This document shows, in pieces, positions 3,270 through 34,874 of a stretch of DNA of 64,000 nt. Source of the DNA: Deltaproteobacteria bacterium (GTDB taxonomy: Bacteria > Myxococcota_A > Polyangia > Polyangiales > JADJMO01). The stretch spans positions 1 to 64,000 of the forward strand of contig JANYDK010000132.1 of assembly GCA_025363655.1 (NCBI GenBank). The letters run 5' to 3'. Both the position numbers and the translations under genes were made by a program. Numbering within the stretch: the stretch's first letter is position 1; each line of letters starts with the position of its first letter. Under the pieces are notes generated by a model that saw only the letters and a program-made list of their open reading frames with translations, was not told the DNA's origin and ran no database searches.

Positions 3270-5411
3270 TCAGGGGAGCGTCGTCGTGATCTTGGAGACG
3301 CCGACGTGTCCGGCGAAATCTTCCGCGAGCACCGTCAACGTGTAGATGCCGGGGAGCATCGGCCGAACATTGATCTTCAAGTCTTCGATCTTGTCCCATT
3401 TGACGTTGATCGGCAGCTTCAGCGACGACGACTTCCCACTTCCGTCGACGACGCGATAGCTCGGAGAGAACGCGACCTTACCGGCCGGTAGCTTCCGCGG
3501 ATCGAACGGCGTGTAGAAGATCTCGCCGTCGGTCTTGTCGATGAAGAAGCCGCTGAGAAGTTTGCTCCCGGCGAATCGAAGGAGCACCGGCTCTTCCTGT
3601 TTGCTCGTCAGCGAGACGGCGAGGACCTCGGCGTCGAAGGTGGTGCTGCCGAGGCGCTCGCGGTTAATCGAGAGCGGAAACTCGGCGCCGTCCTTCCCCG
3701 AGAGGGTGATGTACTGCGGGTTCCACTTCGCCGAGACGACGTTGGTGCCCTTCTTCCAAGCGGTGATCGCCGGCCCCTCCGCGAGCTGCTTGAAGAGCGC
3801 CGGATCGGTCACCGGATCGACCTCCACCGGCACCACCGCCGAGAGGAGGTTCTGCGAGACGATCATCACCGCCTCGCGCACTTCACCGTCGATTTGCGCG
3901 GTGACCGTGCGCTCACCCATGAAGAAGGGATTGGCGATCTGCTTCAGTACTTGGATGTTGCTCACCTTCGGCGCGACCGAGCTGTCGAACGCCTTCGAAT
4001 AGACGGTGAGCAGCTGGCTCCACGGGCTCGATTTGCCGAAAGGCGTCTTCTGATAGCTCGGGAGGAAATCGATGATGTCCTCGGTCGGCGGCAGCCAAAT
4101 CGAGAGGCCGCGGGCGTGCACTTTGTCGGCGCCGTCGAAGGCGTCGACCCGCGCCGCATCGAGCGAAGCGATGACCGCGCTGGCAGTGGCCTTGATGTCG
4201 GCGTTCTGCGTGGTGTCGCGCAAAACAGCAGCGATTTGCACCAAATCGGCGTACCCCTCGCTCGCGCCACCGAGCGGGTTGGTCTGCGGACCGAACTGAT
4301 CGACCGACGCGCCGGCGATGCCGAGCCCGACTTTGTTGTTCGCCAGATCGCCCTTCAGCAGCGTCGCCAGCTTGTCGACGTTGGCGCGCAAGACTGGCAC
4401 TTTGCTCATGTCGAAGAGCGCCTCGGTCACCGACGGATCGACGTCGGTGCCGCCCTCGCCGTAGAAGCCCTTCATCGAGGCGACGAAGGCTTTCCCCAGC
4501 GCCAAACCGTCCATCGTCGGCGTCGTCGTCAGCGCGCGCATCACCGGCTTGAAGTCGTATCCAGGCCCCGGCACCAGCTCCTCGCTCGAAGCCCAATAGT
4601 CGACGTGCGGCCAGAGCGCGTCGGCGACTTCCATCGAGCCCATCAGACACGCATCGGTCGCCAGCACCGCGAACTTCGGCAGGCCTGCTTCTTTACGGCC
4701 TTCGTCGAGCCCTTTCTGCAGCTCGGCGATCGACATCAGCATCGGAGTCGCCTCCGGCGGCGCGTTCTCGTCGACGTATCCGCCCTTCCAACCGGCGCCG
4801 TGATCGCCCATCAAGAGCGCATATCGTTTGGCCGGATACTTCTTCGTCGCCCAGGCGATGAACTTCGCCAGCTCCTTCGGGTGCGACATGTCGATCTCCG
4901 GCATGTCCTCGAGGAGCTTGCTGGAGATGTTCGACGAGCAGTCGTCTTTGGTCATGTAGTAGCGACGCGCGTTGTCCCAATCACCATTGGTGCGGTCGTC
5001 CCGATCGGCCTCGGGCGAGCCGGGCGCGGGACGCCAGCGATCGATCTCGGTGACGATGTTCACCTTCGCGGTCGACCCGATGCACTCGACCTCGTCGAAA
5101 TCGTCGAGCAGCGGCCCCTCGAGGTTGTTGTCGGCCACCGTGTAGACGAGCACCGTCCACTCCGCTGCATTCGCCGGCGGCACGTAGGCCTTTCCGTCGG
5201 GCGTCGTCCCATATCCCGCCGCCGCACCTCCCGCAGTGGCGGGGTTACCGGTCGGTAACTTCGGCACCGGCTTCATCGACGTCGGGTTGCCGCCGAGGAG
5301 CCCGGGAGGAATCGGCGGATTGACCTGCGCATGGCTGGGGGAGAGGCCGAGCGAGAGGCCGAGGGCGAGCGCGAGCGGAAAGGCGGGGCGCGCGCGGGGA
5401 GGAAGGAGCAT
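3270..5411 (-). CDS. Secreted clostripain-family (C11) cysteine peptidase
   Basis: 713 residues from the ATG at 5411, preceded by GGAAGGAG. The longer open frame upstream is a shadow of other genes. A signal peptide ends near Ala28, and a Pro/Gly-rich linker leads to the C11 domain, which opens with WTVLVYTVADNNLE (about 85-98). The catalytic pair of the family is present: His204 in LLMGDHGAGWKGG and Cys255 in LATDACLMGSMEVA. About 300 C-terminal residues look like beta-sandwich domains. C11 enzymes cleave after basic residues and often self-process. Secretion and the 6-nt spacing to the histidine kinase suggest an extracytoplasmic protease made together with a sensor; whether the kinase monitors it is speculation. 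Confidence 0.9.
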   Translation of the reverse strand: MLLPPRARPAFPLALALGLSLGLSPSHAQVNPPIPPGLLGGNPTSMKPVPKLPTGNPATAGGAAAGYGTTPDGKAYVPPANAAEWTVLVYTVADNNLEGPLLDDFDEVECIGSTAKVNIVTEIDRWRPAPGSPEADRDDRTNGDWDNARRYYMTKDDCSSNISSKLLEDMPEIDMSHPKELAKFIAWATKKYPAKRYALLMGDHGAGWKGGYVDENAPPEATPMLMSIAELQKGLDEGRKEAGLPKFAVLATDACLMGSMEVADALWPHVDYWASSEELVPGPGYDFKPVMRALTTTPTMDGLALGKAFVASMKGFYGEGGTDVDPSVTEALFDMSKVPVLRANVDKLATLLKGDLANNKVGLGIAGASVDQFGPQTNPLGGASEGYADLVQIAAVLRDTTQNADIKATASAVIASLDAARVDAFDGADKVHARGLSIWLPPTEDIIDFLPSYQKTPFGKSSPWSQLLTVYSKAFDSSVAPKVSNIQVLKQIANPFFMGERTVTAQIDGEVREAVMIVSQNLLSAVVPVEVDPVTDPALFKQLAEGPAITAWKKGTNVVSAKWNPQYITLSGKDGAEFPLSINRERLGSTTFDAEVLAVSLTSKQEEPVLLRFAGSKLLSGFFIDKTDGEIFYTPFDPRKLPAGKVAFSPSYRVVDGSGKSSSLKLPINVKWDKIEDLKINVRPMLPGIYTLTVLAEDFAGHVGVSKITTTLP

Positions 5412-5501
5412 GGGCGGACGATAGCAGTGTGGAGACGGCGCGGGCGTCGGGGCTTGGGTGGCAAGTTGGCCCGGGTGGTGGAGCTCCGTTACGGGGCTCA
5501 T
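5412..5501. promoter_or_regulatory. Divergent intergenic region, C11 protease / small protein
   Basis: 90 nt separate the start of the protease gene from the start of the small protein gene on the other strand, so both promoters must lie here or just inside the genes. No clear sigma-70 boxes, inverted repeats or riboswitch-like folds were seen. Confidence 0.4.
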
Positions 5502-5990
5502 ATGGCCGCGCAAGTCAGCGTCTCTTCGCCGCGTTCCCATCCGAAAATTTGCATCGACTCCGAGCGGAGGCGGACGCGGAGTCATGACGCCGAGACGGCG
5601 CTCGCGATGCAGCTCGAGACGGTGCGCGACGAGCACGAGGTCGAGCTGCTGATCATCACCGACCTCGACGGTGCGCCACTCGAGAGCGCAGGCGACACCG
5701 ATGACGCCATCGCCCTCGCCGCCTTCGCCGCCGCGATCGCCAAGGAGCACCCTTCGTGGCAATCGATGGTCACGAGCCAAGGCTTCGTCGTCGTCGAACG
5801 CGTCGAAATCGGCTTGCGAAGCTGGGTCGTCGCTGCACAGTCCCGCTTCTCGCTCCCCGACCGCGCCGGCATCGCTCGCGCCGTGGCTGGCGTGATGCGC
5901 ATTCTCGCCAGTGGCCTGGCGCTCGACGTCGAGGCGCCGATTCCTTTGGTTCAATTGGGCGGCTGGGGCGACTGGCCGGAAGAGTGCTAA
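5502..5990 (+). CDS. Small cytoplasmic protein of unknown function
   Basis: 162 residues from the ATG at 5502. A segment reading ELLIITDLDGAPLESAG, followed by an alanine-rich helix and a later VERVEIGLRSWVVAAQSRF strand, has the beta-strand/helix pattern of Roadblock/LC7 (MglB-like) folds; that is a weak structural guess. No signal peptide or membrane segment is present. It ends 9 nt before the ChaC-like gene and probably shares its transcript. The frame is open further upstream to about 5331, but that part overlaps the divergent protease promoter and reads as arginine-rich shadow sequence, so the later start was chosen. Confidence 0.7.
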   Translation: MAAQVSVSSPRSHPKICIDSERRRTRSHDAETALAMQLETVRDEHEVELLIITDLDGAPLESAGDTDDAIALAAFAAAIAKEHPSWQSMVTSQGFVVVERVEIGLRSWVVAAQSRFSLPDRAGIARAVAGVMRILASGLALDVEAPIPLVQLGGWGDWPEEC

Positions 5991-5999
5991 ACCCCCGGC

Positions 6000-6527
6000 G
6001 TGCCTGACTGGCTCTTCGGCTACGGCTCCGTCATCTATCGCCCGAGCTTCCCATTTCTCGAGCGACGCCCAGCGACGCTGCACGGTTTTCGCCGACGATT
6101 TTCCCAGCTCTCCGACGATCACCGCGGCACACCCGAGGCTCCCGGTCGCGTCGTGACGTTGCGTGAAGTCGCCGGTGGCCGTGTACGTGGCGTCGCATTT
6201 CGCTTCGAGCACGCACGCGCGCCGGAGATCTTCGCCGAGCTCGATGTGCGCGAAAAAGCCGGCTACGTGCAGCGGCAAGTGGAGCTCGAGCTCGACGATG
6301 GCTCGCGTGTCGCCGCGCTCAGTTACATCGCCCCGCCCGGAAATGGCTGGGACGCGGGTGTCGAGAGCGACGAGGAGATCGCCGCGCGCATCGCTGCGTC
6401 GGTGGGGCCGAGCGGGAGCAACGTCGAATATCTCTTTCGGCTGCGCGATGCGCTCCGAGAGCTCGCCGACGACGACGATCATGTGGAGCACTTGGCGCGG
6501 CGGGTCCTCGAGCTGCGCGCGTCATAG
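6000..6527 (+). CDS. ChaC-like gamma-glutamylcyclotransferase
   Basis: 175 residues with a GTG start, about the usual size for this family. The N-terminal FGYGSVIYRP matches the substrate-loop motif FGYGS-(L/V)-(I/V)-x-(R/K)-P of ChaC proteins. LDVREKAGY near residues 81-89 corresponds to the family's conserved L-x-x-RE-x-x-GY segment, which carries the catalytic glutamate. These enzymes cleave the gamma-glutamyl bond of glutathione, giving 5-oxoproline and Cys-Gly. The gene follows the small protein by 9 nt. Glutathione specificity is inferred from family membership only. Confidence 0.85.
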   Translation: MPDWLFGYGSVIYRPSFPFLERRPATLHGFRRRFSQLSDDHRGTPEAPGRVVTLREVAGGRVRGVAFRFEHARAPEIFAELDVREKAGYVQRQVELELDDGSRVAALSYIAPPGNGWDAGVESDEEIAARIAASVGPSGSNVEYLFRLRDALRELADDDDHVEHLARRVLELRAS

Positions 6528-14448: not shown

Positions 14449-17400
14449 CTAATTGCCGATGACGGTCTCTTCCTCCGACAACGCGTCGGAGGCGAGGCAG
14501 AACGTGCGGAAGCTCGCGTACTTGTCGGGGTCGATGCGGGCGGCGGCGAGGTCCCAGGCGCGCTTCATGGTGAGCGTGGAGCCAGTGAGGGAGTCGCTGG
14601 CTTCGGTGAGGTCGGGGCCGAAGGCGAGCTTGCCGACGATGGGGCCACGCTTGACCTTCATGCCGCTCGGGAGACGGATGTCGATCTGCAGCGTCTGCTT
14701 CTCGCCGCCGTCGAGCACCATCGGCGTCAGGCGCAGCGGGTGCGGGACGAGGCCGGCGAGGCGACGACGGAAGGGCGCGAAGACGACGAGCTCGCCACCA
14801 CCGACGGCGCGCGCGAAGGACGGGACCTCGACGGCGACGTTGATGCCTAGAGGTTGGTCGAGGTCTTCGCGGTTGACGATTTCGAGCTTCTTCAGCTGCA
14901 CGTTCGGCAACTGCTTGGCGAGAATGCCCGACTCGACGGCGGCGCGGAGCTCGCCCTCGGAGAGCTGATCGATGCCCTCGCGGAGGCTGGCGCCGATGAT
15001 GCCCGAGTACTCGAGCGTGAGCGTACCGACGGCGTCACCGTTGGGGGCCATGTCGAAATTGCCACGGACGAAGATGCCGTCGACGACGCCGCCGGCCGGC
15101 ACCTTGCTGCGAGGCGCGCCGGGACGAAGGACGATCGCCTCTTCACCGCGCGCCGACGGGGGCACGTAGCCGAAGGGGAGGTAGCGACCTCCGAACGACA
15201 TGAAGAGCTCGCCCTCGTCGGTCGAGACGTCGAGCAGCGTGTGACGGAAGCCGTCGCCGGCCGAGAGGGGCGAAGCGGGGGGCGGCGCCAGGCGATCGTG
15301 CGCGATGGCGATGTACGTGTCGATGCCGGCAGCGCGCGCGAGCACGCGGAAGGCCGCGGCAGGATCGCCCGAGTTGCCGATGATCACGCGACGACCGTCG
15401 GACTCTTCGCCTTTCTGGATGTTGCGCGTGACCCATTGGTAGAGCTTGCGCGCGCGTTCGGCGGTCTTCGCGGGCGGGATGGTGCCGACGATCGACATCG
15501 CCTTCTTGACGATGCGCGGATCGACCGGGGTCGTCTCTTTGAGCGCAGCGGCGGCGCTGGCGACGGCGTCCTCGAGCTTCACGCCCCAACCAAAGCTGAC
15601 GTTGGGGATCCACTCGTCACCCGAGGCGCGGTACTCCGGCTCGTCCGGCGCAGGGGGCGCGTCGTCGGCGCGGAAACGACGGACGTCGAAGGCGCCGAGC
15701 TCGCTCACCACCGGCTTCGGTGCACCCGCACGCGCCTCGAAGATGGCCGCGCGACCCTTGGGGGTGATGACGAGGTATTCGCTGCGCGCGTAGGCGATGC
15801 GCGGCTCGGCGAAGAACCAACGAGGCGCGACGTAGGAAGACATCGACGCGCTGCCCGAGCTGATGACCTCGGTCTCGATGATGTCGCCGACGTCGAGATC
15901 GGGGAACGTCAGATCGGGTTTGCCGGCGACGCGCAGCGGCTCGAGTGAACGTCCGTCCTTCTTCAGCACGCGGAGGTGAAGCGCCTTGCCTGCCTTGGCC
16001 TGCACGCGCGAGAGCTCACCGATGGCGTCGCGCGAGAGGACGCGGATGATCTCGTGCTCGAGGAACGACGTGCTGCCGTCGCTGCGAATCCAGAGAGCGC
16101 CGTAGTCGAGGATGCGCTCGGCGGAGCCTTGCGGCGTCTTGCCTTTGTGCTTCTCGTCGTGCTCGGCGATGACCTTGTGCGCATCGAGCCGAAAGGGCGA
16201 GAAATCGAGCGTTTGCTGCAAGAGCTCGAGCGCGCGGAGGACGTCGCCGGGGCGCACTGCGTACTTCTCGATGGTGCGCTTGATGGCGTCGTCGAAGGCG
16301 TGCTTGTTCCCCTTCGCCAGCCCTTGCTCGAGGAAATCCATCGCCGTGCCTTTGCCCTTGGCGAGCTCGGCGGCGATGCGTGCGGTGGCCTCGTCGATGG
16401 AACCTTGGGAAGCCTTCAGCTCTTCGAGCCGCGTGACGTACGACTTGCGATCGGGGTGCGCGGCGACGAAGGCTTCGAAGGCCTTGATCGCGCCCGGCAC
16501 GTCGCCGAGGCCGAGGAAACGCTGCGCGAGGATCGGCTCGTCGGGCTCGATCTCGGCGAGGTGGATCGCCAACTTGTCGGCTGCCGTGAGCGGCCCGTGC
16601 TCGTCGAGGTTGGTGAGCTGCATGCGGACGACCGAAGGATCGTCGGGGAATTGCTTCACCAGATCGGCGACGAGCTTGTCGTGCTCGAGCGTCCAGCCGA
16701 GCTCACCGTAGAGCTCGACGAGTTGCAGCGAGGCGTTCGGTCGCTCTTTCGCCTTGGCCACCAGCGCGGCCAGGCGCTTGGCCTTCTCGGGCGGCGGCGT
16801 GCCTTCACCTTGCAGCTCGACGGCGAGGAGCGGCGAGAGCCACAGCTCCGGATCGACCTCTGCTGCTCGCTCGAAGAGAGCTTTTCCACGCGACGTCGCG
16901 CGCGGCGCCGGCCAGATCGGATCGCGCACGGCGGCCTGCGCGGCGAGCTCGAGGAGCGCACCGGGCGCGTCGCTCTCCTTCACCGGACCGGTTCCGGCGT
17001 CGAGGAGCTCGCCGAGGATCACCGAAGCGACGTCGGCCGCGTCACGATCGAGCGCGGCGCGCGCGGCGAAGAAGGTCGTCAGCGGATCGTGCTCGGAGTC
17101 TTCGCTGGCCGCCAAGACCGGGTGCGGATCGTCGACGACGACAGGCTTTTTCCCGCCATACGCCGGCGTAGGGTCATCGTCGGTGGTGACCTTCAGCGTC
17201 TCGCCGTCGTGCGCGCGCACCTCGATGGCCGAGGCGCCGTCGCCCGCGCGGACGACGATGCGATGACGACCGGCGGCGAGACGAAGCACCACCGAGTCGT
17301 GGAGCGGGCCGCCCCACTTCGTACGATCGCGAAGACGGACGACGACGTCATCGACCGTGACGCGCGTGCCATCACTGGGAGCGAGCACGATTTCCTGCTC

Positions 17401-18228
17401 GCGATCGAGCGTGAGGAAGGTCTCGGCGAGGTAGACGCCGCGCCCTGGGCTCGATTTCGCCGACGTCGTGCAGCCGATCGACTCGGTGGCGAGGACGCGC
17501 GGACGCACCGACGCACCCGGCCGCCCTTCGAACACCGCCGGCCACGACGTCGCGTGCTCGCCTTCGAGCGCGGAGGTGTCGTCGTCGCCCGGAGAGAACT
17601 CGAACGGCCCGGCGATGCGCATCTTCTCGACGCACCCGATGGTCTTGCGACGAATCGCTGCGCCCTCGGAGAGCGGCTTGCCGAACTCGCTCGCCGCCGC
17701 GACGAGGTGCGCGATCGACGACAGCGCACGAAAACCGAGCCCACTCGGCGTCGCACGTGGTGCGAGGAGCGGCGCCAGACCTTGCAGCGCCGTCAGCCGA
17801 TGCGCGCGCGGAACGAGCGGCGCCAAATCCGAAAGCGCTTCGACGGCGACGAGTCCGACCAGCGGCGAGCGCTTGGAGGGAGCCTCGGCGGTCGCAACGA
17901 GCACCTCGATCCACTCGTCGAACGCCTTCGTCGCGACCCCGTGCACGTCGTCGTCGAGCGCGCGCGCCAGCTTCGCATCGAGCCCGCCCCCCGTCGCCGC
18001 ATCGAGCTTCTTGCGCGCATCCCGCGCCCCTTTGGTCGTCCCACCGGGCGCCACCAGCTCGGCCGAGAGCAGCCGCCCGAGGGCATCGGGGTCACCACTC
18101 GCCGCCTCTTCACGAGCCTTGTCGAGCGCACTCCGCGGCGTCGGCTCGAGCGAGCAGCCGCTGCCCGCCGAAAGAGCGAGCACGAACAGAGGCGCGAGCA
18201 CGATGCGCAGGAATTTGGGCGCGGGCAT
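14449..18228 (-). CDS. Very large DUF3857/transglutaminase-like lipoprotein with degenerate active site
   Basis: 1259 residues. The signal peptide has a lipobox-like SGC (Cys25). The N-terminal half holds helical repeats and a beta-sandwich-like part; the C-terminal half starts near residue 690 with a DUF3857 domain (WIRSDGSTSFLEHEIIRVLS) and continues into a transglutaminase-like region after ARKLYQWVTRNIQK. Where active relatives have G-D-C-x-D-x-A, this protein has GNSGDPAAAF, so the catalytic Cys is gone. A His remains in FRHTLLDV, but the expected Asp position is not acidic. It is probably a structural or binding pseudo-enzyme in the envelope. It is a paralogue of the 1339-residue protein at 19596-23615, whose active site is intact. 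Confidence 0.85.
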   Translation of the reverse strand: MPAPKFLRIVLAPLFVLALSAGSGCSLEPTPRSALDKAREEAASGDPDALGRLLSAELVAPGGTTKGARDARKKLDAATGGGLDAKLARALDDDVHGVATKAFDEWIEVLVATAEAPSKRSPLVGLVAVEALSDLAPLVPRAHRLTALQGLAPLLAPRATPSGLGFRALSSIAHLVAAASEFGKPLSEGAAIRRKTIGCVEKMRIAGPFEFSPGDDDTSALEGEHATSWPAVFEGRPGASVRPRVLATESIGCTTSAKSSPGRGVYLAETFLTLDREQEIVLAPSDGTRVTVDDVVVRLRDRTKWGGPLHDSVVLRLAAGRHRIVVRAGDGASAIEVRAHDGETLKVTTDDDPTPAYGGKKPVVVDDPHPVLAASEDSEHDPLTTFFAARAALDRDAADVASVILGELLDAGTGPVKESDAPGALLELAAQAAVRDPIWPAPRATSRGKALFERAAEVDPELWLSPLLAVELQGEGTPPPEKAKRLAALVAKAKERPNASLQLVELYGELGWTLEHDKLVADLVKQFPDDPSVVRMQLTNLDEHGPLTAADKLAIHLAEIEPDEPILAQRFLGLGDVPGAIKAFEAFVAAHPDRKSYVTRLEELKASQGSIDEATARIAAELAKGKGTAMDFLEQGLAKGNKHAFDDAIKRTIEKYAVRPGDVLRALELLQQTLDFSPFRLDAHKVIAEHDEKHKGKTPQGSAERILDYGALWIRSDGSTSFLEHEIIRVLSRDAIGELSRVQAKAGKALHLRVLKKDGRSLEPLRVAGKPDLTFPDLDVGDIIETEVISSGSASMSSYVAPRWFFAEPRIAYARSEYLVITPKGRAAIFEARAGAPKPVVSELGAFDVRRFRADDAPPAPDEPEYRASGDEWIPNVSFGWGVKLEDAVASAAAALKETTPVDPRIVKKAMSIVGTIPPAKTAERARKLYQWVTRNIQKGEESDGRRVIIGNSGDPAAAFRVLARAAGIDTYIAIAHDRLAPPPASPLSAGDGFRHTLLDVSTDEGELFMSFGGRYLPFGYVPPSARGEEAIVLRPGAPRSKVPAGGVVDGIFVRGNFDMAPNGDAVGTLTLEYSGIIGASLREGIDQLSEGELRAAVESGILAKQLPNVQLKKLEIVNREDLDQPLGINVAVEVPSFARAVGGGELVVFAPFRRRLAGLVPHPLRLTPMVLDGGEKQTLQIDIRLPSGMKVKRGPIVGKLAFGPDLTEASDSLTGSTLTMKRAWDLAAARIDPDKYASFRTFCLASDALSEEETVIGN

Positions 18229-18321
18229 GAACCGTGGGTCTTCGCGTAATCACGCGAGGCCGGCAAGTGCCGCAGCAAATGCATCCATCGGTTATGCATC
18301 TGGCCCGACGACCGCGGTCGG

Positions 18322-19515
18322 TCAGCGTCGCGTGAAGTAGTAGAGCGCGAAGGCGATCGCCATCAAGACGAGGATCCAGAAGAGCGGCGACGGCTTCTTC
18401 GGCTCTTCTTCTTTTTCCTTCTCGACCCGCGCGATGGGGGCACGCACCTTCGGTGCCGGCTCGTCTTCTTCCTCGGGCTCTTCGACGACGACGGGCTTCT
18501 TCGGTTTGGGCTCGGACTTGGGTTCGGGTTCCGGCTCGGGCTTCGGTTCGGATTTCTTCGGTTCGGGTTCCGGTTCCGGTTCGGGTTCCGGTTCGGGCTT
18601 CGGTTCGGGCTTCGGTTCGGGCTTCGGCTCCGGCTCGGGGGCGGGTTCAGGTGCGGGCGCGGGTGCGGGTTCGGGCGCAGGCTCGGGCGCGGGTGCGGGC
18701 GCAGGTGCAGGCGCAGGTGCAGGCGCGGGCGTGGGCGCAGGCACGACCTTGGACTCGGGCACCGGCGTCATCTCCGCTGCAGCCGCCGCCTTCTTCGCCG
18801 CAGCCTTCTCCTTCGCCTCGATCTCCGGCCGGAAATCCCTGAGCACGATCGCCTGCGCGTTCGCACCACCGGCGCGCGTGTTGTGCAGACCCTTGGCTTT
18901 CGCGGCGAGGATCTTCTCCAACCCAGCTCCATCGACGCCGCCCTGCACCAAGTAGCTCGTGAGCTCGTCGAGCGTGCCTTCACATGCGTCGATCAGCGCA
19001 GTCGCATAGGCCTTCATCGCGCCATCCGCGCGCGCGGCGTCGGCTTTGCGGACCGAGCCGAGGGCGAAGACGCAGGGTTGTTTGATCGCGGCGATCGGCA
19101 TCGTGGCCGAGACGCGTTCGGCGTTGAAGACCACGAGGGCGCGCTTGACGCGTTCGCGTTTGAGGATCTCTTCGACGTCGGCCCATGGGACGCAGCCCTT
19201 CGGCGGAGAGGCTTCGGTCTCGCGGACGGCGAGCATCAGATCGCCGCCACGCTCGAGGAGGCAACCGGCGAAGTAGAGGAAGAAGGCTCCGTCCTGCGCC
19301 TCGTGGATGCCCTTCTGCAGGGCATTGAAGAGGTCGATGCTGGTCTGGGGATCGATCAGCGTGCGCGAGCTGCCGGCGAAGGTGGTCTGGCCGAGGGCCT
19401 TGCCGAGTGCGCGTGCGCTCTCGGCGGCTTGCGGAACGCTCGGGAGCAACGGGTCGACGTGCTTCGCGACTCCCACGAACAGCGCGTAGCGTTTCGACTC
19501 GTCGAAGACAGGCAT
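18322..19515 (-). CDS. Tail-anchored caspase-like protein with lost active site
   Basis: 397 residues. The first 210 resemble a caspase/C14 p20 fold: [20 protein letters not shown] at the start, an inserted strand [12 protein letters not shown], then [13 protein letters not shown]. Active relatives carry SGHG at the first site and D-C-C-x-S at the second; here these are AGCL and FNAER, so both catalytic residues are missing. A basic/Ala-rich helix follows, then about 110 residues of Pro/Ala, Pro/Glu and Pro/Lys repeats. The protein ends with a single hydrophobic span ([17 protein letters not shown]) and TRR, a C-terminal tail anchor. The head would face the cytoplasm. It sits between two giant transglutaminase-like genes on the same strand. 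Confidence 0.75.
18490..18750 (-). repeat. Pro/Ala-Pro/Glu-Pro/Lys stalk repeat
   Basis: Alternating-proline coding repeat: PAPAP units, then PEPEP and PKPEP units, made of 6-bp and 12-bp DNA steps (GGGTTC, GGCTTC, GGCGCA on the plus strand). It should form a stiff extended stalk between the caspase-like head and the membrane anchor. Confidence 0.75.
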
Positions 19516-19595
19516 TGCCCATCAACGTCGGGCAGCGGTGCCCGCTCTGTCAACGACTCGCCGCGAGCAGGGCGAATTTGCGCGAGAATTCAGAG

Positions 19596-22500
19596 TTACG
19601 GTGAAATCACCAGGCGCTGTCCGAGGGCTCCGTCGACGTCGCGGAGAAAGGCGCGGAAGGCCGCGTAGTCCTTGGCGTGCACGCGCGTGACCGCGAGCTC
19701 GAAGCGCGCGTGGATCTTGACGACGCCCTTCGTCACCTCGACCTCGACGGAGTAGCTGCCGAACGCCGTCGTGCCCTTCTTCGACTCCGGCGTGCGATCG
19801 ATCTTCGCGCCGGGAGGGAGCTTGTAGGTGAAGCGGTCGTCGACCGATTGCGTCGACCAGAAGCGCAGATCTTGTTTGCGATCGGAGAGCGGCGCCCAGG
19901 CGGCGACGAGCGATCCCATCGTCGAGACCGGGAGCGTGCGACGATCGCCGTCGATTTTGCCGAAGCTCGCGCCCTTGCCCTTGGCCTTGATCGACGGGGT
20001 TTTCTCGAGCTCTTCCAGCGCGCTCGGCGTCACCGACGACCACTCGACGGCGGTGAAATCGGCCGGGAGATCTTCGTGGAGCTTGGCCTCGAGCGGCGAG
20101 GTCACGCGATAGCGACCGCGGAGGCGCGGCGCGAAGGTGCCGGTGCCCTCGAGCGTCGCCTCGACCGAGCTCGCCGACAGATCTTTGGCGAGCTCGATCT
20201 CGGAGACGAGCGTGCGCACGGAGGCCGAGGCGGGCGGATCGGGGAGATGGACGATCTTCGCCTTCTGCCCGATGGCCTGGCCGATTTGCACAGCGAGCGC
20301 GTTGCGATCCATCGCCGGAAGCTCGGTCGATCCGTGATCTTCGGCGGTGCCGTCGAGGTAGAGATCGAGCGAGGGAACGTAGGCGATCATGTGATCGAAG
20401 AGCGCCAGCGACGGCGGCTGGGTGGCGACGTCACCGCGCTGGTTCGTGCGCACGAGCACCGGCACCGCCTCGATGTTCAGCTCCTTCAACATGGTGACGA
20501 TGAGCGTCGCCTTGTCTTTGCAGTCGCCGAAGCCGCGCGCGAAAATCTGCGAGCAGCGGTAGGGCAGGAAGCCGTGGATGCCGAACTCGAGGGCGACGTA
20601 GCGCGTCTGCTGCACGACCCAGTCGTAGACCGCGCGGATCTTGTCTTCGTTCTTGGTGAGTCCCTTGGTGATCTCCTTCACCTTGGCGCGCACCGCGTCG
20701 TCGGCGACGTACTGATCTTTGACCAGACCCCAGTACCAAGCGGCCAGCGAATCCCAGTCTTTGTAGGTGGAGACGTGCACCTTGGCGAGCGTCTCGGCCC
20801 ACGGCGGCATGCTCGGTTCGCTGATCGTGCCGGGCACCATCTCGGCCAGCCAACGACGGACGTGGAAGTCGCCCTTGTCTTCTTCGGTGAAGGCGACCTT
20901 GAGCGTGGACGGATTCTCGATGGCCAGCTCGCGACCCTTGGGAGTCCGCAAAACGTGCTCGATGCGCGCGGTCGGCTCGGAGTTCTGCAGGTACTCGACC
21001 TCGCCGAAGTAGTCGCCGAAGGCGTTGCGCGGGGTGGTGTCCTCGATGCGATAGCGAAGCTCGACGACGTCACCGGCGCGGAGGTTGGGGAAGAGCACGT
21101 AGTAGACGCGCCCCGACGTGTACATCGAGATCGACGGATCGTTGTTGCTCGTCTCGCCCGTCTCCGCGGCCTCGTCGACCTTGCCGTCTTCGCGGTAGAT
21201 CTTCGCTGCGCGCAACGTGACGGTTTCGATGTCGGCTTGGAACCCGAAGGCATACTGCTTCGCCTTCGAGACCGCCTCGTTGGTGAGCGGCTGAAAGACG
21301 ATCTGCTTGAAGCGCGAGCTGAGCCCGTTCGGGAGCACGGTCGTCACCGTGACCTCCGAGAGGATGCGCGTGTCGAAGCCGAGCGAGGGGAGCGTGCGAC
21401 GTTTGAGGAAGACCTCGCTCGCCTCGGCGTACATCTCGTCCTCACGCGGCTTGCTCGGCTCGGCTTGCTCGAGGTAGTCGCGAATCTCGGTCAGCTGCGG
21501 CCAGCGCGCGAGCACCTGCTTGTAGAGCTTGAGCTGCACGTCGCGCTTGCCCCGTCGACCTTCGACGTCGGCGAGGGCGATGCTGATGCTCGGATCGTCG
21601 GGTGCGATCTCGAGCGCGGCGGTGAGGAGACCGACCGCGAACGCTGGATCGCCTAGTTTTTCCATGGCTCCGGCGCCATCGCGGATCGGCGCGTCACCGG
21701 TCGGATCGATCGCACGCCAACGAGCGATGACCGCCCGAGCGGCGACGACGTCGCGCGTGCGCACCGCGGTGTCGAGGCTGTCGGTGAGGTAGGCGCCGTC
21801 GGTGAGCGAGAGCTGCGCCCAACGGAGACGAATCTCGTCGGCGTCGTTCGGCGCATCGAGCGCGGTCCAACGAACCAAGCGCTCGAGGAGCACGCGCGAG
21901 CGCGGACGGAGACCGAGCGCTTTGTCGATCTCGCCGCGCGCGATGCGACGCATGCCGACCGAGGCGATCAAGTCGGCGTGGGCGACGATGCTCTGCAGGT
22001 GATCGGGCGACTTCTGCAGCGCGCGTTCGTAGAAGGGGAGCGCGTCGTCGGGGTTCGGACCGCCGGCCGCGAGGAGCCCTTCGGCGTAGAGGACGTCGAC
22101 GTCGTTCGGCGCGAGCGCGACGGCCTTCTCGACGAAGCCACGACGCTGGTTGCGATCTTCCGCGAGCTCACCGGCGAGGAGGTAGCGGGCCGCGGTCGGC
22201 GAAGTCTCGGCGGCGCGCCTCGCGAGGTCACGCGCTTCGTGCTTGGTCGGATCGTCGCCGCCGGTCTCGGAGAGATGACGGGCGAGCTGCTCGAGGTCGG
22301 CGGCGCTGCTCTTGTCGCCTTTGGCGCGGGCGATGAGGGTCTGGAAGTAGCTCTTGGCGTTGCCGACCGAGAAGGGCTCCGAGAGGAGGAGCGGCTTCTT
22401 CTCGGGCTTGAATTCGCTCGTTTTCTCGGCCTTTTCGTCGCCCTTCTTCTCGAGCTTCTTTCCGTCTTTCTCGTTCTTCTCGGGCTTCTCGTTCTTCTCG

Positions 22501-23615
22501 GGCTTCGGCTCTTCCTTCGGCGCCGGCAGCGGCGGCTTCTTCGCCTCTTCCTTCTCGTTCTTCTCGTTCTTCTCGTTCTTCTCGTTCTTCTCGTTCTTCT
22601 TCGCGTCGCCTTTCTTGGCGTCGCCCTTCTTCGGGTCGATCTTGGCGACCGGCTTCTCGTCCTTCGTCTTGCCTTTGCCCTCGGCGTCGGCGGCCCAACG
22701 CGGATCGGAGTCGACGCGGATGCCGGTGAACGGCGCTCCCTTGGCGTCGGCGATGCGCAACGTCAACGAGGGCGAGCGGTCCATGCCGCAGACCTTCACC
22801 AAGAGCCGGTTCCACCCCGGCGCGATGGTGATCGAGGTCGCCATGCGATCGAACGTGAGCCCGCGCTCGGCGGAGTCTTCGAGGACGCGATCGCCATTCC
22901 AATAGACACGAACGCTCCCAGAGGCACCGAGCCAGAGCGAGGCGTCGAGCGGCTTCGCCTTCTTGTCTTCGGTGGACGAGCCGTTGACGAACGTCGTCGC
23001 GAGCACGCACGCGTGGGTGCTCGGGCGAACCGCGGCGGCGAGATCGACGATGCCGAACGGCGAGGCGGCCTCGGGGAGGCGGCGCCAATGCACGCCCTTG
23101 TGGTCTTTGCCGTCGTACGTCATCGTCGCCGAGAGGAGCCCGCGGCGATCGAGTTCAGGCCCGATTTCCGGGGCGAAACCGGCACGGCCTTCGTGATCGA
23201 AGGGACCGACGACGAGCCACTTGTCGACGTAGCCGGCGTGCATCGCGAGGGTGTGCGCTTCGCTGGTGTCGCCGAGTTGGAGACGCGCGGTGGCGGCGAA
23301 GGCCGTGGCGAGCGCGCGCACCGGCGGATCGATCGAAGCGTCGTCGCCGAGCGACTTGAGCGCGGCCGAAATGGCGAGCGGATCGTCGAGGTCCCAGTGG
23401 TTCCAGAGATCGTAGATGGCGTCGGCTTGATCGATGCCTTTGCTCGACTTCACGCGCGCGGCGATCGCCCAGGCTCCAGCGGAAGCGTCACCGCTCCCCG
23501 ACTTGGGCACCCCGGCGACGACGTCGGCGGCGAGCAGCGTCAGAGGGACGAGAAGGGCAAAATGAAGGGAGCGGTGCACGTCGGAAGTTGTCGACTGGAG
23601 CGGCTGGCGGGTCAA
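19596..23615 (-). CDS. Giant secreted DUF3857/transglutaminase-like protein with intact Cys-His-Asp and TPR-like region
   Basis: 1339 residues with an N-terminal hydrophobic signal segment (HFALLVPLTLLAADVVAG). The N-terminal third includes a beta-sandwich-like part (VYWNGDRVLEDSAERG) and a very basic linker with KNE repeats at about residues 340-420. TPR-like helices occupy about 430-720, with AVALAPNDVDVLYAEGLL and ALEIAPDDPSISIALADV. A DUF3857 domain follows at about 750-930. The transglutaminase-like core at about 970-1110 contains GFGDCKDKAT (Cys), ALFDHMIAYV (His) and LYLDGTAEDHG (Asp), a complete triad. Reactions in this family include amide cross-linking or hydrolysis; the real substrate is unknown. 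It is paralogous to the 14449-18228 protein. Confidence 0.9.
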   Translation of the reverse strand: MTRQPLQSTTSDVHRSLHFALLVPLTLLAADVVAGVPKSGSGDASAGAWAIAARVKSSKGIDQADAIYDLWNHWDLDDPLAISAALKSLGDDASIDPPVRALATAFAATARLQLGDTSEAHTLAMHAGYVDKWLVVGPFDHEGRAGFAPEIGPELDRRGLLSATMTYDGKDHKGVHWRRLPEAASPFGIVDLAAAVRPSTHACVLATTFVNGSSTEDKKAKPLDASLWLGASGSVRVYWNGDRVLEDSAERGLTFDRMATSITIAPGWNRLLVKVCGMDRSPSLTLRIADAKGAPFTGIRVDSDPRWAADAEGKGKTKDEKPVAKIDPKKGDAKKGDAKKNEKNEKNEKNEKNEKEEAKKPPLPAPKEEPKPEKNEKPEKNEKDGKKLEKKGDEKAEKTSEFKPEKKPLLLSEPFSVGNAKSYFQTLIARAKGDKSSAADLEQLARHLSETGGDDPTKHEARDLARRAAETSPTAARYLLAGELAEDRNQRRGFVEKAVALAPNDVDVLYAEGLLAAGGPNPDDALPFYERALQKSPDHLQSIVAHADLIASVGMRRIARGEIDKALGLRPRSRVLLERLVRWTALDAPNDADEIRLRWAQLSLTDGAYLTDSLDTAVRTRDVVAARAVIARWRAIDPTGDAPIRDGAGAMEKLGDPAFAVGLLTAALEIAPDDPSISIALADVEGRRGKRDVQLKLYKQVLARWPQLTEIRDYLEQAEPSKPREDEMYAEASEVFLKRRTLPSLGFDTRILSEVTVTTVLPNGLSSRFKQIVFQPLTNEAVSKAKQYAFGFQADIETVTLRAAKIYREDGKVDEAAETGETSNNDPSISMYTSGRVYYVLFPNLRAGDVVELRYRIEDTTPRNAFGDYFGEVEYLQNSEPTARIEHVLRTPKGRELAIENPSTLKVAFTEEDKGDFHVRRWLAEMVPGTISEPSMPPWAETLAKVHVSTYKDWDSLAAWYWGLVKDQYVADDAVRAKVKEITKGLTKNEDKIRAVYDWVVQQTRYVALEFGIHGFLPYRCSQIFARGFGDCKDKATLIVTMLKELNIEAVPVLVRTNQRGDVATQPPSLALFDHMIAYVPSLDLYLDGTAEDHGSTELPAMDRNALAVQIGQAIGQKAKIVHLPDPPASASVRTLVSEIELAKDLSASSVEATLEGTGTFAPRLRGRYRVTSPLEAKLHEDLPADFTAVEWSSVTPSALEELEKTPSIKAKGKGASFGKIDGDRRTLPVSTMGSLVAAWAPLSDRKQDLRFWSTQSVDDRFTYKLPPGAKIDRTPESKKGTTAFGSYSVEVEVTKGVVKIHARFELAVTRVHAKDYAAFRAFLRDVDGALGQRLVISP
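22552..22596 (-). repeat. 9-bp perfect tandem repeat (KNE units)
   Basis: Five perfect copies of TTCTCGTTC on the plus strand encode (N-E-K) units of the basic linker in the giant transglutaminase-like protein. Perfect identity at all positions, including third bases, indicates recent expansion. Confidence 0.9.
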
Positions 23616-23633
23616 CCGCTCACACGCACAGGC

Positions 23634-24449
23634 TCACGGAGCGGGAATCGAGAGTGGCGCGGCGTTGACCTTCTGTTCGCTGCCGTCGGCTTGGAGCGCG
23701 AAGACGTCGGCGAAGGTCGAGCTGGCGGTGAAGTCGAAGGTCATGCCGTAGCAGTTGACGTGGCCGAGCGGGATCGCCGCCTCGGGCGCGTTGGTCGTGA
23801 TCCACGACGAGAGTGAGCCCCAGAGCAGCCCCGACGAACGCGGCAACACGAACGACCTGCCCTTGCCCTTCTTCAGCTCGTCGGCCGTCGCGGCGGTGAC
23901 CACCCGATAGGCAAAGGCGGTGGCCGGGAAGACCAAGTTCGTGGTGCGGTTGTGCGAACACTTCCAGGAGCTCACTTCGTGCACGAAGGTGACGGTGGTC
24001 GCGCTCGTGGTCGGCGCCTTCCAACCGGGATCGACGGTGAAGCTCCAGGTGGTGGGCGCGCCGCTCGGATCGGCCAAATCGAGCTCGAGGGGACCAGGCT
24101 TGGCGGCCGGCACCTCGACGCGAAACACCTGCATGCCGGCGGCCTTGCTCTCGGGGAAGACGATGACCGGAAGCTTGGTGGTCTTGCCGCCGACCTTCGA
24201 GGTCGCGCCGAAGAGCGGCGTGCTCTTGCTCGCCTGCCACTCCGGGACGAAGAGCCAGAACACTGGTTTTTGCGGCACGGAACCATCCGAGGGCGCGAGC
24301 GCAGCGGACGGCTGCATACACTTGGCCTCGGCCGTGGTCGGCAGCAGCACCATCGACGCGAGCGTTGCGATCGCGCTCAGCGAGACTGCCGAGACGCGCG
24401 AGACGCGCGAGACGGACGGCGGCAGCAGGAAGCGAGGGGCGAGGCGCAT
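23634..24449 (-). CDS. Secreted protein of unknown function
   Basis: 271 residues. The signal peptide contains a repeated SRVSRVSAVS stretch and ends at TAEA near residue 42. The mature part has beta-rich sequence with three cysteines (one near the start, one in WKCSHN, one in HVNCYG) and ends in DVFALQADGSEQ. No family was recognised. It is 18 nt upstream of the giant transglutaminase-like gene on the same strand, so the two are likely co-transcribed. A possible role is an envelope partner or substrate of that protein, but there is no direct support. Confidence 0.8.
   Translation of the reverse strand: MRLAPRFLLPPSVSRVSRVSAVSLSAIATLASMVLLPTTAEAKCMQPSAALAPSDGSVPQKPVFWLFVPEWQASKSTPLFGATSKVGGKTTKLPVIVFPESKAAGMQVFRVEVPAAKPGPLELDLADPSGAPTTWSFTVDPGWKAPTTSATTVTFVHEVSSWKCSHNRTTNLVFPATAFAYRVVTAATADELKKGKGRSFVLPRSSGLLWGSLSSWITTNAPEAAIPLGHVNCYGMTFDFTASSTFADVFALQADGSEQKVNAAPLSIPAP
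24382..24417 (-). repeat. 9-bp tandem repeat in a signal-peptide coding region
   Basis: Four units of GAGACGCGC and variants on the plus strand encode SRV/AVS steps in the n-region of the secreted protein's signal peptide. Confidence 0.7.
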
Positions 24450-24614: not shown

Positions 24615-25499
24615 GTGACCTTCCCCTACCCCGTCCCGATCCGCGTCCTCGCTCTCTTCACAGTGCTCGCGGCGTCGGCCTCGACGGCGTGCGGCGGCTC
24701 TTCTACCGAGAACGCAGGGACGGGCGACGCCGGCTCCGACGGCAGCACGAACGGCGACGGGCTCTCGGACGGTCTCGCGGACGGGCTCGCGGACGGGCTC
24801 GCGGACGGGCTCTCCGACGGGCTCACCGACGGCGCGCCGAGCTTTCCGCCGTGCGGCGATGGCCCTTATTTCACGTACTCGGCGAACATCGGCGAGATCA
24901 CCGCCGCCGACGACGTCGTCGTCCTCTCGAGCGCGATCTTGACCTTCGACGAGTGCCCGAGCCTGAAGCTCACGCCCGACGGCAAGGGACGCGTCTCGGC
25001 GTCGCTCAGCAAAGGGAAGCCCTTCACGGTCAGGGTCACGGCCGACAAGCACATCACCGTCATCGGGCCCGAGCGTCTGGTCCCCAAGGACGATGCTCTC
25101 ACCGGCTATCGCGAGAACATTCTCCTCCCTGTCAACCTCACCGACGCCGTGCCGCAGTACATCGACAGCGCGCCGTCGTTCGCCTTCATCATCGAACCGA
25201 CGAGCACCGCGGTGAAGCCGTGCAACGAGGTCGACAAAGTGACATTCGACATCCCTACCGGCGTGAAGGGACACTTCATGCTCGTCGGCTGGCCGAAGAA
25301 CAACGCCGATCCGCTCTCGGAAGGCGTCAGCATCGGCCCGGTCGTCTTCTTCACCGGCGTCACCAGCTCCAGCGTCGCCGGCATCGTCGCGCACAAGACG
25401 AGCTGCGCGATGAACGCCAAGGGCGCGCCGACGTACCAAACGGGCAACTACAAGTTGGAGAACGGCGCTTGGACGTATGGGAACGTCGACGAGCGCTAG
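24615..25499 (+). CDS. Lipoprotein with DGLADGL repeat linker
   Basis: 294 residues from a GTG at 24615. The lipobox is STAC (Cys26). An acidic linker with six DGL-x units (DNA 24756-24827) leads to a beta-rich domain from about residue 78, with [17 protein letters not shown] near its start and a further three cysteines. The domain runs to the end with no known family. It is convergent with the NlpC/P60 gene, and the two ends overlap by 4 nt. Confidence 0.8.
24756..24827 (+). repeat. 12-bp in-frame tandem repeat (DGL-x units)
   Basis: Six units of GACGGGCTCGCG, two of them identical and the others changed at the last codon or one base, encode [12 protein letters not shown] in the lipoprotein linker. 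Confidence 0.9.
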
Positions 25500-27097
25500 C
25501 GGCGCCGCCTCCTCCCGATCCACAGCGCCAGCGCAATCCCCACCCCTAGCCACGCGCCCGTACGGCCGTCGCCATTGCCGTTGCCCGTCGCGCAACCGCC
25601 GCCCGCAGTCGTGCCCGAGAAATCGCCGGGATCGCCGCCATCGCCGACCTCGCACGCGTCGCCGATGCCGTCCTTGTCGGTGTCGGCTTGGTCGGGGTTG
25701 GAGACGTCGGCGCAGTTGTCCTTGGTGTTGACGATGCCGTCGCCGTCGAGGTCGTCGTCGCAGACGTCGCCCTTGCCGTCGCCGTCGGTGTCGAGCTGAT
25801 CGGTGTTGGCCGCGCTCGGACAATCGTCGACGTCGTTGGTGATCGTGTCACCGTCGAGGTCCTCGTCGCAGACGTCGCCCTTCCCGTCCTTGTCGCTGTC
25901 GAGCTGATCGGGATTCTTCGCTTCCGGGCAGTCGTCCTTGGCGTTGAGCACGCCGTCACCGTCGATGTCGGGATCGCAGTCGTCGCCGATGCCGTCCCCG
26001 TCGATGTCCGATTGATCGGGATTTTTCACGGTTTTGCAGTTGTCGGTGGCGTCGGGCACGCCGTCGGCGTCGTCGTCGAGCTGACAAGCGTCGCCCTTGC
26101 CGTCGCCGTCGGTGTCCTTCTGATCGGGATTCTTCACCAGTGGACAATTGTCCTTGGCGTTGAGGATGCCGTCGGCGTCGATGTCGTCGTCGCAGGCGTC
26201 GCCCTTCCCGTCCTTGTCGAGGTCGGCTTGCGTCTTGTTGGCGACCAGCGGGCAGTTGTCCTTGGTGTCGAGGATGCCGTCGTTGTCGTCGTCGGTGTCG
26301 CAGGCGTCGCCCTTGCCGTCCTTGTCGGTGTCCTTCTGGTCGACGTTCTTCACCGTGTCGCAGTTGTCCTTGGTGTTGAGCACGCCGTCACCGTCGATGT
26401 CCGGATCGCAGACGTCGCCGATGCCGTCGCCGTCGAGGTCTTTCTGATCGGCGTTGTCGGTCTTGTCGCAGTTGTCCTTGCTGTCGGGGACGCCGTCACC
26501 GTCGGTGTCGACCGCGTCGGTGAGGTTGCTGCGGACCGCCGCGGTGTAGCCGCTCGTCGAACGATCGTCGTGGATGCACTTGTAGACGCACCCCTTGCAC
26601 TCGTAGGCCCAGGCGTAGCCCCACGGATCGCCCTTCTCGAAGAGCCACGTGTGATGGCTGCTCGAGAACGCGTCCATCAGCTTGGCGTCGCTGCGCGAGA
26701 TGACCTTCCAGTAAGGGCCGCTGCTGGTGAAGCTGTCGGCGACGTACGGATGCGACGCCGTCGTCAGCGCGATCGGCGAAGGGATTTGCCACGCCTTGCC
26801 GACGAAGCCGGAGCAGTCGGCGCCCCACGCTCCGGAGTGTGTGCACGACGGGCAACCGCTGCTCCCGGTCGGCGTGCAGACGCCCTTGTCGGTCGCGCCT
26901 GGGCTCCATTTGCTGCCTCCCCACCAGTACGAAAAGTTGGGGATGGTCTTGGCGATGGTGAGAATCGACTCGCGCGTCATCGCCGCCGGAGCTCCACCGG
27001 CATTGCCGGCAGCGCTGATCGCGAGCATCGCGACGGGCAGCAGTCGCGTCGCGCCGAGGAGCACGCGGGTGAGAACGGAGCTTCCCTGGCCGCTCAT
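25496..27097 (-). CDS. NlpC/P60-like protein with eight thrombospondin type-3 repeats
   Basis: 533 residues. A signal segment lies at about 10-35. An NlpC/P60-like domain follows, with [10 protein letters not shown] and [16 protein letters not shown], where the Cys is the expected nucleophile and [10 protein letters not shown] supplies a His. Residues about 197-490 form eight calcium-binding TSP3 repeats, each built as D-x-DGDG-x-x-D-x-x-D-(N/D)-C followed by N-x-DQ-x-D-x-D-x-DG-x-GD-x-C. The C-terminus has a glycine-rich stretch, a hydrophobic span ([14 protein letters not shown]) and Arg-rich end, a sorting signal of the GlyGly/MYXO-CTERM type. Probably a surface or envelope cell-wall hydrolase. 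The start overlaps the stop of the beta-propeller gene (ATGA). Confidence 0.9.
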
Positions 27098-34326: not shown

Positions 34327-34824
34327 ATGAGCGACGCCACCATCGACGACCTTCACGCCGAGATCCAAGTCGAAGCGACGCGACTTCACGTCTTGCACGC
34401 CGCTCGGCTCGCATGTCGTCGCGGGTGCAGCGCGTGTTGCATCGATGGATTGACCGTCTTCGAAGTCGAGGCCGAGACGATTCGCCTCCATCACGCGAGC
34501 TTGCTCGCGACCGGTCTTCCTCACCCCGAAGGGGGCTGCGCCTTCCTCGACGAAGCCGGCGGTTGTCGCATCTACGCACACCGTCCCCAGGTCTGCCGCA
34601 CGCAGGGATTGCCGCTGCGATGGCTCGAAGAGGACGAGACAGCGACCGTCGAACGGCGCGACATCTGTCCGCTCAACGAAGCGGGTGAGCCCATCGAGAC
34701 GCTCGCCGAGAGTGCCTGTTGGACGCTCGGTCCGATCGAAGAACGGCTCGCTGCGATGCAGTTGGCGAGCAAGCCGAACGCTGCGCGGGCGTCGCTGCGT
34801 GGGCTCTTCGTCGTGACTGGGTGA
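34327..34824 (+). CDS. YkgJ-type cysteine-cluster protein
   Basis: 165 residues. The N-terminal CRRGCSACCIDGLTVF fits the C-x(3-4)-C-x-x-CC metal-binding signature of YkgJ/UPF0153 proteins, and a second pair appears as CRIYAHRPQVCRTQGLP, with RP-x-x-CR typical of the family. These proteins probably bind zinc or an iron-sulfur cluster; their role is unclear. A further Cys in DICPLNE and one in ACWTLG would complete the set. No signal peptide is present. It precedes the GH87-like gene by 50 nt. Confidence 0.85.
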   Translation: MSDATIDDLHAEIQVEATRLHVLHAARLACRRGCSACCIDGLTVFEVEAETIRLHHASLLATGLPHPEGGCAFLDEAGGCRIYAHRPQVCRTQGLPLRWLEEDETATVERRDICPLNEAGEPIETLAESACWTLGPIEERLAAMQLASKPNAARASLRGLFVVTG

Positions 34825-34874
34825 TTGGCATCACCCAACAGCGAGGGCGCGGGCGAGTGGTACGTTCCATTGCC

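Follow-up and report, generated by a model that had tools for sequence, protein, structure and literature searches.

Within the 64,000-nucleotide stretch of DNA analysed here (the window), four consecutive genes raise the question of why a bacterium would encode a large transglutaminase-like protein together with a catalytically dead paralogue, and of whether the other two genes, one of which encodes a caspase-fold-like protein bereft of its catalytic residues, belong to the same functional unit. A preliminary description had proposed that all four products act together in an envelope complex. The four same-strand genes are present as that description had them, with open reading frames lying at or near the coordinates it gave and the quoted motifs reading as reported. 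In order of transcription, they are:

23634-24449, minus strand: P5, a small exported protein of 271 aa encoded upstream of P3 (translation)
19596-23615, minus strand: P3, 1339 aa, the active member of the pair (open reading frame and translation, Pfam)
18322-19515, minus strand: P2, 397 aa, caspase-fold-like (translation, NF047832 profile, PDB fold matches)
14449-18228, minus strand: P1, 1259 aa with an ATG start, the dead member of the pair (open reading frame and translation, Pfam, AF2 model)

The 1339-aa form of P3 begins at a TTG codon, and a GTG located 36 nt inward would serve equally well as a start. P5 is separated from P3 by 18 nt (54 nt if the GTG is used), and the gaps of 80 nt between P3 and P2 and 93 nt between P2 and P1 agree with the 80-93 nt noted previously. 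A search for terminator-like sites on the minus strand between the four genes found none, and these terminator-free gaps would allow co-transcription. P3 and P1 lie 1367 nt apart, with P2 occupying the interval. N-terminal export signals are present in P3, P1 and P5 and absent from P2. The genome encodes no DUF3857 proteins other than P3 and P1. Elsewhere in the window, we observed a protein with thrombospondin type 3 repeats, a MYXO-CTERM sorting domain and a below-cut-off resemblance to MtsC (25496-27097, minus strand), as well as an alpha-1,3-glucanase-like (CatAgl D1/D2) protein (34719-36776, plus strand); a PADLOC run returned nothing meaningful.

P3 combines a Sec signal that lacks a lipobox with TPR, DUF3857, transglutaminase-core and DUF3858-like regions. 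Its matches to the Pfam models for DUF3857 (4.6e-24; 85.8 bits against a cut-off of 24.6) and for the transglutaminase core (1.2e-7; 32.4 bits against a cut-off of 23) both exceed the thresholds of the DUF3857/Transglut_core/DUF3858 family group (PF12969, PF01841, PF12970), and a search of PDB sequences with P3 recovered TPR proteins only. The catalytic cysteine, histidine and aspartate are all present, in the motifs GFGDCKDKAT, FDHMIAYV and LYLDGT. P3 is therefore best read from its sequence as a putative exported, soluble cysteine enzyme of the transglutaminase/peptidase type, whose predicted catalytic set would fit peptide hydrolysis and transamidation equally well.

P1 shares the C-terminal architecture of P3, and both proteins possess long N-terminal halves containing TPRs. 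Its signal is of the lipobox type (LALSAGSGC), and it is predicted from this signal-peptide pattern to be a bacterial lipoprotein; the only hydrophobic stretch in its hydropathy profile spans aa 1-27. The position of the catalytic cysteine reads GNSGDPAAAF, such that the cysteine is absent; the histidine is retained (FRHTLLDV) and the aspartate is gone (ELFMSFGG). The Pfam DUF3857 match is exactly at the cut-off (2.9e-5, 24.6 bits), and the transglutaminase core is detected only as a trace. An AF2 model of aa 660-1255, built from 31 sequences, nevertheless has a mean pLDDT of 91, and its best PDB match (E 1.7e-25) is 3kd4 (BDI_1141 of Parabacteroides distasonis), a solved DUF3857-type relative annotated as a 'putative protease'. 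Because of this confident model and structural match, the dead copy appears to be a maintained fold rather than a decaying gene. P1 differs from the DUF3857 family, 3kd4 included, in lacking the catalytic cysteine, and both P1 and P3 differ from it in their long N-terminal halves. Within the order, relatives of P3 and P1 are found in 167 and 157 of 184 genomes, respectively, when any match at E 0.001 is counted, weaker paralogues included. When the dead family is represented as a profile (A2), full-length relatives are recovered across the whole class and from a large part of the phylum sample.

Alignment of these relatives reveals how consistently the two families differ at the active site. 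All three catalytic residues are intact in 50 of 50 active copies, and the catalytic cysteine is absent from all 76 dead copies, a set that includes closely related genomes and does not represent 76 independent events. Every dead copy has the same three-residue alignment gap at this point and retains the preceding glycine; whether the change is a deletion or a substitution with an adjacent gap depends on the alignment, but the absence of the cysteine does not. Some dead copies contain another cysteine about nine residues further on, in the following helix. The other catalytic columns are less uniform, with the histidine kept in 8 and the aspartate in 20 of the 76. One active-type sequence (L200:1-975, G085:C245) reads GYGPVKERS instead of GDCKDKA and retains the histidine and aspartate. 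It was not taken as a real cysteine-less copy, as it is truncated, lies at a contig start and belongs to a genus in which two other genomes have intact copies; the fragment could reflect either an assembly error or a lone loss.

The two families are also divided by their export signals. Of the 76 dead copies, 55 satisfy a strict lipobox rule, and none of 44 active copies does; in nearly all of the remaining dead copies, the signal peptide can still be seen by eye to end in cysteine. The dead twin is therefore predicted to be anchored in a membrane and the active twin to be soluble. This clean partition goes beyond the preliminary description, in which only P1 had been called a lipoprotein, and the predicted split in lipidation is the main clue to mechanism that the sequences offer.

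To what extent are the two genes associated with each other? Among 60 loci sampled across Myxococcota, chosen as relatives of the pair and not by adjacency, the active gene lies directly upstream of the dead gene in 49; the remaining 11 comprise five loci cut by contig ends and six that are apparently true separations, among them those in the large genomes of group g79. For loci in which the start of the dead gene can be placed, which excludes 16, the median gap between the genes is 2 nt and overlaps of -4 or -1 nt are frequent, one value of 532 nt probably stemming from a wrong start. Such overlaps are a sign of translational coupling. The window pair is atypical in this respect, as a 1.2-kb gene stands between the partners and breaks the tight coupling. 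When the neighbours of the pair were examined in 18 loci and in the window, none was found to be conserved as generally as the pair itself.

In a 59-sequence tree, the active and dead lineages each form one clade (support values of 100/99 and 100/96, with 100/99 for monophyly of the dead lineage), and the two lineages split before the sampled Myxococcota diverged. Since the dead lineage is monophyletic, a single ancestral loss of the cysteine, kept ever since, is suggested. The pairwise distances of the partners correlate (r = 0.91 over 36 loci), a relationship much of which shared ancestry alone would yield. As regards a possible horizontal acquisition of the window pair, its active copy nests with group g24 in the tree of active copies, and its dead copy is basal to the sampled copies of family f12 in the tree of dead copies. 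A diverged second type of pair, in which the active motif is GDCDDK, occurs at L096 (G001:C225), L097 (G003:C133) and L099 (G022:C92); the same-family genomes G001-G004 are without the window's type of pair, and the genome under study is without their diverged type. Full-length versions of both partners are missing from every sampled genome of one genus in family f5 (group g7, which includes G008, G016 and G045), and several of these genomes are rated 100% complete, which suggests joint loss. In genus group g79 (G160-G165) and in G098, G144 and G142, a long distance separates the active gene from the dead one, or the two are found on separate contigs. Adjacency is therefore not essential to the pair, given such genomes as those of g79. 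The pairing of P3 with P1 is no accident.

A parallel arrangement was encountered outside the phylum. A scan of genome contigs with P3 returned a single relative, in a Flavobacterium MAG whose locus has one active DUF3857 gene with two dead copies after it, and DUF3857 genes in relatives of this MAG are often in tandem. All 13 of the Flavobacteriales tandems that were read have GDCK in the first gene and lack a cysteine at that position in the second; the second gene of G531 carries a cysteine slightly earlier in the loop. In the 59-sequence tree, which for this comparison samples one order and is subject to long branches and uneven composition, the active and dead flavobacterial copies join in a single group (99/99) that is distinct from both Myxococcota clades. 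This separate grouping points to two or more apparent origins of the dead partner. The flavobacterial dead copies whose sequences were inspected carry ordinary Sec signals and no lipoboxes, and membrane anchoring of the dead twin is therefore not universal.

These observations strongly support the association of active and dead copies, which extends far beyond what the window alone could show. They also make it probable that P3 and P1 are engaged in a functional partnership of some kind. The form of partnership that we favour, with a probability of about 0.58, is an envelope module of enzyme and pseudoenzyme in which P1 would serve as a lipidated, dead partner that anchors or regulates P3. According to this model, P3 would be exported as a soluble cysteine enzyme, and P1, stripped of the cysteine but with its fold kept, would be exported as a lipoprotein. 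P1 would then bind P3, or the substrate of P3, at the membrane by way of its TPR/DUF3857 scaffold and the reshaped loop of the former active site, and so might place, activate or restrain the enzyme. Physical contact between the two proteins, the direction of control, the substrate, the reaction and the identity of the membrane are parts of the model that we infer.

The literature provides partial precedents. Open-access sources that we searched mention DUF3857 in one paper, describe no function for the family and contain no instance of an inactive transglutaminase as the tandem twin of an active enzyme. EPB42 (band 4.2) is a vertebrate membrane-skeleton protein. Together with other dead vertebrate paralogues, it exemplifies the retention of a catalytically inactive protein alongside active family members (PMC10318531), but it is not an operon partner and differs from P1 in architecture. 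Inactive transglutaminases of the RloB type (rlo operon of Pseudomonas aeruginosa, PMC12239564; HM2192, PMC12096838) resemble P1 in that a periplasmic inactive domain shares an operon with an enzyme. RloB possesses seven membrane helices, and its partners are an aspartic protease and an ATP-grasp protein, whereas P1 is a predicted lipoprotein with one N-terminal hydrophobic stretch and is encoded beside its own active paralogue. In polymorphic toxins, inactive transglutaminase domains that have lost their catalytic residues have been suggested to act as peptide-binding anchors (PMC3482391); these domains are N-terminal modules of RHS toxins, and the analysis detected neither an RHS nor a toxin domain in P1.

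The toxin precedent lends itself to a different interpretation, in which the dead lipoprotein has a job of its own, for instance using its closed groove to retain peptides or cell-wall stems at the membrane, and has only its regulation in common with the active enzyme. The genomes in which the two genes are apart would be accommodated by this arrangement. The strict tandem order and the overlapping frames seen in most of the phylum, together with the independent recurrence of the tandem in Flavobacteriales, instead favour partnership, and we regard a separate role for P1 as unlikely. We give somewhat less weight again to the possibility that the dead copy is a dedicated inhibitor, decoy or favoured substrate that curbs a periplasmic cross-linker or protease. 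The common fold, the close or overlapping frames and the membrane tether would all suit an inhibitor, but the data do not separate inhibition from activation. Many inhibitor systems place the inhibitor gene first, and the opposite order found here, with the active gene leading, argues weakly against this alternative.

P2 and P5 stand outside this pair. As the preliminary description recognised, P2 has lost both catalytic residues of a caspase: its sequence is FLYFAGCLL at the site of the caspase (G)HG motif and VVFNAERV at that of D(A/T)C. Its aa 10-130 match the profile of EACC1-associated caspases (NF047832; PMC7159879) at 4.3e-14, but the score of 52.5 bits is below the curated cut-off of 140, and no EACC1 partner was seen near P2. 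Pfam searches gave no C14 match; the caspase region can be aligned with a true C14 protein, and the top 50 PDB fold matches of the P2 model, which has a pLDDT of only 45, are all caspases or paracaspases. The window encodes another caspase-clan protease (3270-6491, minus strand), which is 1073 aa long and contains a clostripain (C11) peptidase domain. Hydropathy analysis of P2 indicates a C-terminal membrane helix (aa 374-396) and no signal peptide, and the protein also contains a Pro/Glu/Lys-rich linker. As this linker produced many false matches in whole-protein searches, relatives were counted with the caspase domain alone, and P2 occurs in two of the 184 genomes of the order. The only close relative, in G001, is 39% identical and has the same losses (FAG[C/F], NAER); more distant relatives still have GHG and, wherever that region could be aligned, D(A/T)C. 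The G001 gene is not beside that genome's pair. Its contig ends just past the caspase domain, and a connection to the pair across the other contig edge was not borne out, as the contig bearing the pair begins with unrelated opposite-strand genes. No other genome examined has a P2-like gene between the pair members. Given its rarity, the location of its sole close relative away from the pair and its absence from between the members of any other pair, P2 appears to represent a small pseudo-caspase clade that entered the operon locally. P5 has no relatives in 97 genomes of the order and no family assignment from domain profile searches, and it may be an operon leader gene.

A four-gene envelope complex that includes the pseudo-caspase would be in keeping with the common strand, the gaps of 18-93 nt and the lack of minus-strand terminator-like sites between the genes. 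We nevertheless judge it very improbable, considering the distribution of P2, the orphan status of P5 and the predicted cytoplasmic location of P2, which would put the inner membrane between it and the exported pair and makes contact with that pair unlikely. The proposal of joint action is consequently supported for P3 and P1, for which phylum-wide tandem order, overlapping frames and the Flavobacteriales parallel can be cited, and is not supported for P2 and P5. Likewise, the check for conservation in relatives that had been suggested bears out the pair neighbourhood and the residue losses, and not the four-gene neighbourhood. An accident confined to a single genome, which had been named as the outcome that would undo the proposal, is excluded for P1 by the 76 cysteine-less copies and for P2 by the matching losses in G001. 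P2 and P5 are best explained as probable local additions that lie outside the conserved P3-P1 unit, a warning that the feature of the locus that most catches the eye, the pseudo-caspase, is also its least general. Least probable of all is that P1-type proteins are still enzymes that employ another nucleophile, for which the invariant glycine and frequent (N/S)R of the former cysteine loop might be invoked, as the histidine and aspartate columns vary widely, unlike those of a conserved new triad.

Returning to the model of P1 as the lipidated partner of P3, we suggest tentatively, and at somewhat short of an even chance, that DUF3857 transglutaminase-like proteins share a general design, the tandem of active and dead copies, that arose independently in at least two phyla and in which the secreted cysteine enzyme has the dead twin, lipidated in Myxococcota, as its obligate partner at the membrane. 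If true, this would define an unrecognised class of envelope machine built from an enzyme and a pseudoenzyme. A family with almost no literature proves to occur as a stereotyped active/dead pair, maintained across a phylum known for large genomes and complex surfaces. Because a sharp rule, evident in Myxococcota as a shared gap and one-sided lipidation, recurs in Flavobacteriales, these pairs offer a clear-cut setting in which to test why dead enzymes are retained by bacteria.
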